Assembly: GCA_903866255.1 (NCBI GenBank)
Contig: CAIPMW010000085.1
Location: 1-36,964, forward strand
DNA length: 36,964 nt
Direction: 5' to 3'
Source of the DNA: an uncultured Chlorobiaceae bacterium
GTDB lineage: Bacteria > Bacteroidota > Chlorobiia > Chlorobiales > Chlorobiaceae
A program made the translations under genes and the position numbers. Positions 9,190-11,659 of this stretch are shown here, piece after piece. The notes beneath the pieces are model-generated. The model did not search any database. It had not been told where the DNA came from and was given only the letters and a program-made list of their open reading frames with translations. Numbering within the stretch: position 1 is the first letter of the stretch; the number at the start of each line of letters is the position of its first letter.

Positions 9190-9380
9190 GTGATGCGAGG
9201 GTTTCTATTTTGAAATAAAAATTTCTATTGCACCACAACCTTGTACCGATTCGATTATAGCGGAACATCTTGGTAGGGTCGAGAACTGGCGCGTTGAGTT
9301 TAGGGTTCGGTGGTAATTCCAGCACTTTCGTCCTGGCCCTCAGTCCAACTCCCATGTTTACGTTTCCAATTCCCGCCACG
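9190..9380. other. Non-coding stretch between adaptor gene and intron domain V
   Basis: No gene is supported here. An 8-base direct repeat TTTCTATT occurs at 9202-9209 and 9222-9229. Because the intron remnant lies on the minus strand, its 3' end (domain VI and the exon junction) should fall within this stretch, but I cannot place the boundary. Confidence 0.4.
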
Positions 9381-9828
9381 TCAAACCCGGCGTACCGTTT
9401 TCCGGCACCGGGCTTTCCTGATAGCTTCTTCCCAAAGCTTATGAGACTGTTTCTGCTGGGCGTGCTTTAAGCTCCGGGGAGCCACCCTGTAACCGGCAAA
9501 TAGCCGGAGGTGGTTATACAACCAGTTTCTACTCCACCGTTTCCAACCAAACCCCTGACGCTTGCGCACTCGCATTAAATGTCGCCGAATTTTCTTCTCT
9601 ACCCAATCCTTAACGTAACCAAAACAGCTACTCGAGTGGCCTATCCGAAGTTATCCCGTCTATACCGGGAGCACCTCCATTTGATTTTGCCAGTCGGTAT
9701 GCTTCGTATAACGTTTCCTCCTTGCAGACATGAACATACAATTCCCAAAAGCGCCAAGTTTCTTTCACCTTCGCTTTGAGGTATATCTTCCTTCTCAGTT
9801 CCTGCAAATTAACAGGTGTATTTGTCAT
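9381..9828 (-). pseudogene. ltrA: Group II intron reverse transcriptase/maturase, internally deleted
   Basis: The N-terminal piece (9828 to about 9650) reads MTNTPVNLQELRRKIYLKAK and ends with GAPGIDGIT, the family's RT0/RT1 region. In a different frame, from about 9650 to 9381, comes the C-terminal end of the maturase: CFGYVKDWVEKKIRRHLMR and GFGWKRWSRNWLYNHL, typical of the extreme C-terminus of the Chlorobi/proteobacterial intron proteins. Everything between is missing, including the catalytic YADD region, so about 300 residues are deleted. The start has GGCAAGGGTG just upstream. The gene is non-functional. Confidence 0.88.
9383..9415 (-). ncRNA. Group II intron domain V
   Basis: On the minus strand the 33 bases begin AAGCCCGGTGCCG, pass a GAAA loop and end CGCCGGGTTT. 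The lower stem is 8 pairs including one G-U, with a 2-base CG bulge on the 3' side, an upper stem of about 5 pairs and the AGC catalytic triad near the 5' end. These are the hallmarks of domain V. The hairpin overlaps the last codons of the reverse transcriptase, as often happens in bacterial introns. Confidence 0.8.
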
Positions 9829-9895
9829 TCACCCTTGCCTCACATTTCGTTAGAAGAATACCATCAGTAGGGTGTCTCCTGCTGAACACACCAGC

Positions 9896-10435
9896 CTTCG
9901 CTGGACCATTCTTCCTCACGGAGTGCTCTTCCGTGGAGGTGTGGAGGAGCGTATCCGCACCAAATTGCTCAAGGACGGCCATATTGACACCGTCATTGGT
10001 CTGCCCGCCAACCTCTTTTTCTCCAATGGTATTCCCGTCTGCATTCTGGTGCTCAAAAAATGCAAGAAGCCTGACGACGTGCTCTTCATCAATGCCAGCG
10101 AGCACTTTGAAAAAGGGATGCGGCAGAACCGGTTGCGGGAAGATGATATCGAGAAGATTGTTGACACCTATCAATTCCGCTGTGAGGAGTTACGTTACTC
10201 TCGACGGGTAACGATGGAGGAGATTGAAACCAACGGCTACAACCTCAATATCTCACGCTATATCAGCACCGCTCAGGAAGAGGCTGAAATTGATCTCACA
10301 GCGGTACATGCTGACTTGGTCAACATCGAAGAGCGAATTGTAACAGCTACCAACAAACACAACGAGTGCCTGAAAGAGCTTGGTTTGTCTCCTTTACCGG
10401 CAGGAATTCGTGGACAAGGTTCTGATGCGCTTTAA
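9896..10435 (+). pseudogene. hsdM: Type I restriction methylase HsdM, C-terminal fragment
   Basis: The 180 or so residues match the last third of HsdM: ILPHGVLFRGGVEERIR, VIGLPANLFFSNGIPVCILVLKK, FINASEHFEKGMRQNRLR and NGYNLNISRYIS. The AdoMet-binding and NPPF catalytic motifs, which lie further N-terminal, are absent, so it cannot methylate DNA. Recognisable similarity starts close to 9896, directly against the intron remnant; the ATG at 9872 is only a chance start in intron sequence. No hsdS or hsdR is nearby. It looks like the survivor of a deleted type I restriction-modification locus. Confidence 0.88.
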
Positions 10436-10546
10436 AATGTCAAAGAGTATTATGTTTCCCAAAGTCGTAAAAAAAGTGTGGAGTTGTGTCAGTGTGTTAC
10501 AATACCGATGCATCTGATCGGCTAACGAGTTACAATGAGGGTGATG

Positions 10547-11659
10547 ATGAAAAAGCTGCCAGTAGGAATACTGACGTTCAGTAAAGTCATCGAGGGTGAT
10601 TATCTCTACATCGACAAAACGGAGATTGCCCGCAGCCTGATTGACAGCTTTCAATATGTCTTTCTGTCGCGGCCCCGGCGATTCGGCAAAAGCCTGTTTC
10701 TCGACACGCTGAAAAATATTTTTGAGGGAAATCGGGAGCTGTTCCGGGGACTGCTGATTGAGGAGCAATGGAACTGGGAGGTGAAATATCCGGTCATCAA
10801 AATCAGTTTCAGTGGGGGGATTCACAGCAGGGAAACTCTTCGCAAAAACCTTTTCTATATCTTGAATGGCAATCAGAAACGCCTTGATATTCATTGCGAC
10901 GAGAAAGAGGACCCCAACCAGTGTTTCGCAGAATTAATCGAGAAAGCATACGAGAAATATCACCAGAAGGTGGTCATCCTGATTGATGAGTATGACAAGC
11001 CGATTCTGGATAATATTGAGAATATTCCCGAGGCACTGGTCGTTCGGAACGGTATGCAATATTTTTACACAAAAATCAAGGAGAACGACGAGTATCTGCG
11101 CTTTGTGTTTCTCACCGGAGTGAGCAAATTTTCCAAAGTGTCGCTCTTCAGTGGTCTGAACAATCTCGAAGACATCAGCCTGAACCCTGACTATGGCAAT
11201 GTCTGTGGGTACACTCAGTTTGATCTGGAGAGCTCTTTTGTCCCTTATCTTGAGGGGGTCGATATGGAGCAGGTCAAACGGTGGTACAAGGGCTATAACT
11301 TTTTGGGAGACCGTGTTTATAACCCTTTCGATATCCTGCTCTTTATCAAAAACAATTTCGAGTTTGACAATTACTGGTTTGAAACCTGTACGCCGCGCTT
11401 CCTTGTTGAGCTCATCAAAAAAAACAGCTATTTCATCCCTGATTTTTTGAATATCACCGTTGACAAAAGTCTGGTCAACAGCTTTGACATTGAAAATCTC
11501 AATATAGAGACCATTCTGTTTCAGACCGGCTATTTGACCATCAAGCGCGTGATACATGATGAGATGGAAGTGATGTACGAGCTGGGATTTCCCAACAGGG
11601 AGGTGCAGCTCAGTTTTCACAAATATATTTTGCAATCAATGACGAGTGGTTCGGGATAA
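10547..11659 (+). pseudogene. AAA-ATPase-like protein (PDDEXK_9 family), N-terminal part cut by in-frame TAA
   Basis: The protein begins MKKLPVGILTFSKVIEGDY, followed by the P-loop region FLSRPRRFGKSLFLDTL and Walker B VVILIDEYDKPIL. This is the AAA-ATPase_like domain (PF09820 type), usually fused to a C-terminal PD-(D/E)XK nuclease-like domain in a protein of about 510-530 aa. Here the frame stops at TAA 11657-11659, after the LGFPNREVQLSFHKYIL segment that normally leads into the nuclease domain. The nuclease part continues in the same frame immediately after. I prefer the ATG at 10547 because GAGGGTG sits just upstream, although an ATG at 10535 is also in frame. The family is common and often decayed in Chlorobi and Bacteroidetes; its role is unknown. 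Confidence 0.82.

Follow-up and report, generated by a model that had tools for sequence, protein, structure and literature searches.

Mobile group II introns, twintrons and introns without an open reading frame (ORF) are all known kinds of bacterial element. In the twintron reported by Copertino and Hallick in 1991, the inner intron may lie in domain V.

Fragmented group II introns are common, with truncated copies in the majority according to one source (PMC4028801). Twintrons are called rare in bacteria (PMC4649490), and two pipelines for collecting introns exclude them or miss the outer intron (PMC4028801, PMC8919778); here and below, what is said of published work refers to the accessible parts of the papers. 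Among the introns of Thermosynechococcus elongatus, the ORF of the TeI3 introns was lost once, and some TeI3 introns insert in domain IV (DIV) of TeI4 introns, between two start codons (PMC2882425). In a twintron of the Eutreptiella chloroplast, three nucleotides separate the internal intron from the 3' splice site of the outer one (PMC5572947).

We have analyzed a stretch of 36,964 nucleotides (the window; contig CAIPMW010000085.1) from an uncultured Chlorobiaceae bacterium. It contains what is very probably a dead remnant, marked by two internal deletions, from a lineage of group II introns whose complete members carry a ribozyme of the Rfam D1D4-4 type and a reverse transcriptase (RT)/maturase of ~435 aa and most likely home by EBS1/EBS2 pairing. 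The relic alone is ordinary decay; the part worth following is an intron family that mostly enters other introns at the edge of their catalytic hairpin.

Anatomy of the relic and its flanks

A preliminary description, made from the letters of the DNA, had placed at 9381-9895 a group II intron fossil that keeps domain V. The identification is borne out by an RF00029 match of 28.9 bits to domain V (E 0.0016 in an 881-base search), by the fold of the hairpin (-20.6 kcal/mol, z -3.35) and by a copy in another species of the genus (locus L034, genome G307), to which 537/608 aligned positions are identical (88%), in addition to 28/30 bases at the 5' end. The RF00029 score is below the Rfam curated cut-off of 40, and an Rfam search of the whole window at the gathering threshold reported nothing; the domain V assignment therefore rests on the low-threshold match together with the comparison. 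The extent had to be corrected, since the relic spans 9273-9906 (Table 1).

Table 1. Features of the intron relic and of its flanks, with window coordinates.
Feature	Position	Strand	Basis and remarks
hsdM 3' fragment	9907..10435	+	TIGR00497 and PF02384; profile positions 370-509 of 515
Whole group II intron relic	9273..9906	-	634 nt, intron nt 5 to 3' terminal AC; BLAST to L034, L035, L036, L037, L038, L039 and L040, with lengths and junctions
Kept intron 5' end, nt 5 to ~33-38	9906 to ~9873-9878	-	First four bases of GTGYG gone
DI-DIII deletion junction	9872..9878	-	428-430 nt gone including EBS1 and EBS2; split comparison with L034, L035 and L036
RT N-terminal fragment	9652..9828	-	ATG to about residue 59-60; aligned to the intact RTs of L035 and L036
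RT deletion junction	9644..9651	-	~920 nt gone; short ACTTC common to both ends
RT C-terminal fragment	9381..9643	-	Other frame than N-terminal fragment; stop codon 9381-9383
Domain V hairpin	9381..9417	-	AGC in 5' strand; RF00029 match over 9417-9273, and fold
Domain VI and intron 3' end	9273..9380	-	~108 nt, unusually long; same last bases conserved in other copies
Flank between HlyD-like gene and intron 3' end	9201..9272	.	72 bp; not domain-VI-like by eye

The two relatives with an intact RT are ~1,990 nt long (1,989 nt for L035), as compared with the 634 nt of the relic. Both belong to the genus; their RT/maturases have 435 (L035) and 448 aa (L036), match TIGR04416 with 370 and 372.5 bits, respectively, and contain PF00078 and PF08388. 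The RF02003 ribozyme domain was found in L034, L036 and L037. Along the relic follow nt 5 to ~33-38, a gap of 428-430 nt, DIV with the start of the RT, a gap of ~920 nt, the RT C-terminus, domain V, a long domain VI and the terminal AC. As had been described, the two ends of the RT lie in different frames (minus strand, 9828 to ~9650 and ~9643 to 9381). The N-terminal fragment has a weak TIGR04416 match (E 0.017), and the C-terminal fragment is 77-88% identical in DNA sequence to L034, L035, L036 and L039.

The losses differ in part from those proposed before. Most of the protein and of the 5' ribozyme had been regarded as lost, and most of the RT and of DI-DIII is indeed gone, but the extreme 5' end (nt 5 to ~33-38) survives and is 90-97% identical over 30-34 nt to four copies in which GTGC or GTGT directly precedes the matched stretch. 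The GTGYG 5' end is present in L034, L035, L036 and L037 and incomplete in the relic. The single internal deletion of the earlier account corresponds to the ~920 nt missing from the RT, and a second one (428-430 nt) exists besides. A truncation against hsdM was not found: the intron is kept from nt 5 onward, it adjoins hsdM at 9906/9907, and its main losses are internal. The alignment suggested at the time for placing the deletions, and the 3' splice site within 9190-9380, gave both gaps and a 3' end at 9273 (...CCCTAC, an 'AY' end), where matches to copies at other loci stop at 9273 or 9272. The anatomy of the relic, both its junctions and its 3' end are hereby established. Of the features of a functional intron, domain V and the 3' terminal AY are kept, and GUGYG, domain I with EBS1/EBS2 and an intact RT/maturase are absent. 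ORF-less mobile introns of the TeI3 type keep DI-DVI, as does L034 for DI-DIII; the relic has lost most of the latter.

The segment at 9273..9380 folds with a z of -2.16, and 5/200 shuffles folded equally well. From domain V to the 3' end, the window copy and its relatives have ~108 nt, which exceeds the length of the Rfam model; this is either an extended domain VI or a 3' extension.

The relic sits, on the minus strand, between a HlyD-like gene and the hsdM fragment, and is flanked on its 5' side by hsdM sequence, the join being at intron nt 5. Homology to hsdM begins at 9907 in 8/11 and at 9908 in 3/11 of the related loci compared, intron nt 5 being 9906, and no overlap of the two sequences is visible at the join. 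As profile positions before 370 of 515 are unmatched, about 70% of hsdM is missing at the locus. A further partial N6_Mtase (hsdM) match exists in the same genome (G000:C107:2168-2602; profile positions 130-276 of 311). The start of the gene at 10535-11659 of the window matches many places in this and related genomes, and apparently belongs to a multi-copy family in the genus.

On the other side, the HlyD-side homology to the best match stops at 9200. The idea that the window copy is a twintron insertion was rejected, as no domain VI stem is seen by eye in the 72-bp 3' flank, and no visible feature places this copy inside another intron. A search with 9190-9275 gave matches in 5/65 genomes, one of which is the own genome. 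Three of the others (G044, G213, G315) share a 28-nt match at 9272-9245 (E 0.0025-0.0029), which starts at the first base past the intron and has an identical 20-base core in all three, so that the matches are not independent. It overlaps a 117-aa ORF in G044, and the G213 locus has no listed ORF of at least 80 aa. The match in G010 is a different, weak one (E 0.0012) deeper in the flank. The 28-nt match hints at a possible trace of the old target site of the relic.

Several other fragments of the intron were seen. A relic of ~196 nt (L040 1747-1942, genome G217) has two internal deletions and its three pieces lie nearly end to end. Fragments of ~170 nt, one of them shorter, run from domain V to the 3' end (L021 1501-1671, L029 1501-1670, L024 1503-1563) with flanks common to three genomes; those of L021 and L029 adjoin a stem that by eye resembles domain VI. 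The copy in L016 (1501-1878, genome G225) has its 5' side cut off almost exactly at the RT junction of the window, and the neighboring sequence is seemingly IS-derived.

The RT deletion and residual activity

The copy in G307 (L034) has an RT deletion of 922 nt, the ends of which fall within about ten bases of those in the window. Its 5' ribozyme domain is recognized by RF02003 with 99.8 bits, its domain V scores 36.5 bits, below the cut-off of 40, and immediately upstream of it lie a domain V and an outer RT ORF.

We give an even chance to the possibility that the two RT deletions are independent, each produced when short stretches of similar sequence at the ends of the RT gene recombined. 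At the window junction ACTTC is common to both ends, at the G307 junction GGCCATT resembles GGTCATT, and L040 is another relic with internal deletions. What speaks against independence is the agreement of both ends to within about ten bases in a gene of ~1,300 nt. Somewhat below even we put the chance that both copies descend from one ORF-less intron, whose RT was lost once and which spread in trans to different sites, as TeI3 in Thermosynechococcus, with DI-DIII being lost later in the window copy. Common descent would agree with the 88% identity of the two copies (608 aligned positions), with the nearly equal size and closely placed ends of their RT deletions (920 and 922 nt), and with the different surroundings, L034 lying behind the RT and domain V of an outer intron and the window copy between HlyD and hsdM; the ORF deletion common to the TeI3 introns would be its precedent (PMC2882425). 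However, only two copies with such an RT junction were seen and their best split points differ (after 26 as against 29-33 of the compared stretch), with G307 following the N-side sequence further, so that two separate deletions at similar short repeats fit equally well.

An assembly artefact, in which the deletions would be collapsed repeats, had been named as the alternative in the preliminary description. It is very improbable: although the assembly comprises 117 contigs and in relatives several copies lie at contig ends, a closely similar RT junction is found in a second assembly, that of G307, with unrelated sequence on both sides. That a hairpin and some ORF ends came together by chance and are no intron is, in spite of the low domain V score, refuted for practical purposes, since the sequence aligns collinearly with introns that have RT and RF02003 ribozyme domains.

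The preferred reading is that of a dead intron, which lost most of DI-DIII and most of the RT through two internal deletions, in an order that we infer, and became joined to hsdM at intron nt 5 by a deletion or an illegitimate join. Activity has presumably been lost completely. It had been proposed that a full copy elsewhere in the genome, to be searched for, could act in trans on the remnant. No other copy is detectable in the assembly (99.19% complete, 117 contigs, with room for a copy in a gap), the DNA search of which recovered the window copy alone, and four matches to the GIIM domain in the same genome have no similarity comparable to the relic. Since the relic is without EBS1, EBS2, most of DI and the RT, has a damaged 5' end and has no other detected copy, neither splicing nor mobilization in trans is credible, judging from the known requirements of group II introns. 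For the ORF-less copy in L034, which keeps the 5' ribozyme, mobilization in trans appears possible.

Landing sites and guide sequences of the family

Directly 3' of the domain V of another group II intron, the outer one usually being distantly related, lie 25/37 scored copies. In the first set, 30 copies have enough upstream sequence, and in 20/30 the base before the intron is the last one of a domain V hairpin of another intron (score of at least 9 against the domain V consensus), a score reached at 0.195% of 20,000 random positions in the same loci, which thus form the baseline rather than the flanks of other families. With the same threshold, a later set gave 5/7, all seven being from genomes or plasmid records already sampled. 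The 25 copies represent 21 clusters of different 5' flanks. Not at domain V by this threshold are 12/37 (10/30 and 2/7); among the ten, L160 is borderline (score 7) and the other nine are not at domain V. One copy outside domain V, L079, which shares its contig with L035, sits inside domain I of an RF02005-type intron.

The consensus-alignment score replaced a hand-made pair counter and a folding test, which was passed by 738/3,000 random positions; both were too loose. The family set took L079-L097 (19) of 76 loci, the other 57 having a best-segment identity of at most 52% except for the short segments L153 and L154. Dropped from scoring were L089, L091 and L166, in which the 5' end is not mappable, and L086, with only 11 nt upstream.

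The surroundings of the copies point in the same direction. An RT-like ORF ends 33-89 nt upstream in 14/21 copies of the domain V type (L160 counted, L155_76 left out; three have <170 nt upstream) as compared with 0/8 of the others. Over the matched stretches, the outer RTs are 26-38% identical to the RT of L079 in 12 loci, 50% in L155 and 64% in L087, and the outer ribozymes recognized by Rfam are of the RF01999, RF02001 and RF02005 types. The 3' end was located automatically in 24/31 copies, at least that of L165 falsely; where it was located, the 3' flank is by eye domain-VI-like in 14/17 domain V copies (the false end of L165 among the 17) and in 0/6 others. In a Patescibacteria MAG (L087 1-1552) a copy lies right behind the domain V of a same-family copy, with 64% RT identity to L079.

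Members of the lineage were found in the Chlorobium group, Geobacteraceae, Desulfofustis and other Desulfobacterota, a Peptococcaceae MAG, Nitrotoga, plasmids of Burkholderiaceae and Bradyrhizobium, and the Patescibacteria MAG. For one Bradyrhizobium copy, 22/37 matching plasmid records contain its first 510 nt at 99% identity or more, and copies on such plasmids (L159, L161, L162, L176, L183, L187) have different 5' flanks, which suggests that they have moved recently. In L159, the sequence past the intron 3' end, from 3935 onward, resembles a new start of that intron's 5' end (GTGTGTCCAGG), and a broken second copy may lie there. Two wide searches of genomes for additional copies recovered only known ones, in at least 1/399 and at least 2/277 genomes, with up to two candidates scored per genome, so that further copies may be missed. 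A search for the 5'-end pattern in 394 genomes gave three copies, all known, and a scan of viral contigs one distant RT only.

To find the guide sequences, the aligned 5' parts were scanned without bias for stretches of six bases pairing better with the own 5' flank than with the flanks of other copies. Two places emerged, one near nt 215 that pairs with flank positions -6 to -1, and one near nt 186 that pairs with -12 to -7; by their position we take them to be EBS1 and EBS2, respectively. For EBS1-IBS1, 28/28 copies have at least 5 of 6 standard pairs (mean score 5.48, as against 3.22 with non-cognate flanks). For EBS2-IBS2, 10/27 copies have at least 5 of 6 and 18/27 at least 4 of 6 pairs (mean 3.91 against 2.55). 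The cognate sum was reached by 0/100,000 permutations for either site, numbers that are not clean probabilities, because the scan that picked the positions used these very data and because the copies are related to one another, several from Bradyrhizobium being near-identical. Left out of the permutations were L037, L163 and L165 (DI cut by a contig end, or near-identical to L162), and for EBS2 also L086.

EBS1 is typically AACCGT or AACCGG, and EBS2 AAGTGA or AAGTGC. Copies outside domain V have matching changes in EBS1, e.g. AGACCC/GGGTCT in L079 and AAAAGT/ACTTTT in L095, and L186 of the later set, which has an AT-rich flank, has by eye a matching AAAAAT. As EBS1 matches the own flank also outside domain V, intron boundaries and targeting agree, the usual target being the 3' strand of domain V. 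The pairing between EBS and target is shown by covariation.

Taken together, these sequence comparisons make it likely that the family is a broadly spread lineage specialized to home at the junction between domains V and VI of other, mostly distant group II introns, reading the 3' strand of the hairpin with EBS1 and EBS2. It would be a hyperparasite, with the window relic as a dead member. In complete relatives, the excised intron in complex with its protein would pair EBS1 and EBS2 with the target, which in most copies is the domain V 3' strand of a different group II intron; by analogy with known retrohoming, the intron would then reverse-splice between domains V and VI of the outer intron and be copied by the RT.

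No part of a group II intron tolerates change less well than domain V, and such a target could not easily escape the hyperparasite. If this is correct, splicing of the inner intron itself must restore the active site of its host intron. One lineage would repeatedly land on the most conserved piece of other introns, its guide sequences changing to match, which opens for tests of whether a ribozyme is parasitized via its own active site, whether inner splicing has to come first for the outer intron, and how guides drift under a near-invariant target. For targetron design, the copies provide a natural series of EBS/IBS pairs.

Comparison with described introns

A search for descriptions of a lineage homing to the junction of domains V and VI found none in the open-access literature, which leaves subscription papers mostly outside and makes this weak evidence of absence. 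Several described systems share parts of the picture. The Trichodesmium twintron is also a group II intron within a group II intron, but the inner one lies in domain I of one host intron, and the accessible part of PMC4649490 describes no site-specific family for it. In the nested introns of Methanosarcina, site-specific homing into group II introns is likewise repeated (review PMC4424553); the target, going by the title of the original study as cited in PMC4649490, is related intron ORFs and not domain V. The TeI3/TeI4 twintrons of T. elongatus have their insertion in DIV of TeI4, whereas the usual site here is the domain V/VI junction of mostly distant introns (PMC2882425).

As regards the relic, inactive fragments are likewise kept in the genome in the case of the RmInt1-like fragment FRE652 and of other fragmented bacterial introns (PMC5894124, PMC4496777). 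These introns are described as losing the 3' end. In the window relic, by contrast, the 3' end and almost the entire extreme 5' end are kept, and it is the middle that has gone. Closer in form are T. elongatus sequences without the protein and most of domains I-IV, which resemble the window relic (PMC8919778), and the ORF-less TeI3 introns, in which, as in the G307 and window copies, the ORF is deleted with both RT ends recognizable (PMC2882425). The family as a whole compares with bacterial mobile group II introns of the RF02003 type, which the relatives resemble in the GTGYG 5' end, domain V, the AC 3' end, the RT/maturase and the EBS1/EBS2 pairing. Unlike such introns, the window copy has lost its first four bases and the greater part of both DI-DIII and the RT, and its relatives are mostly located at the domain V of other introns.
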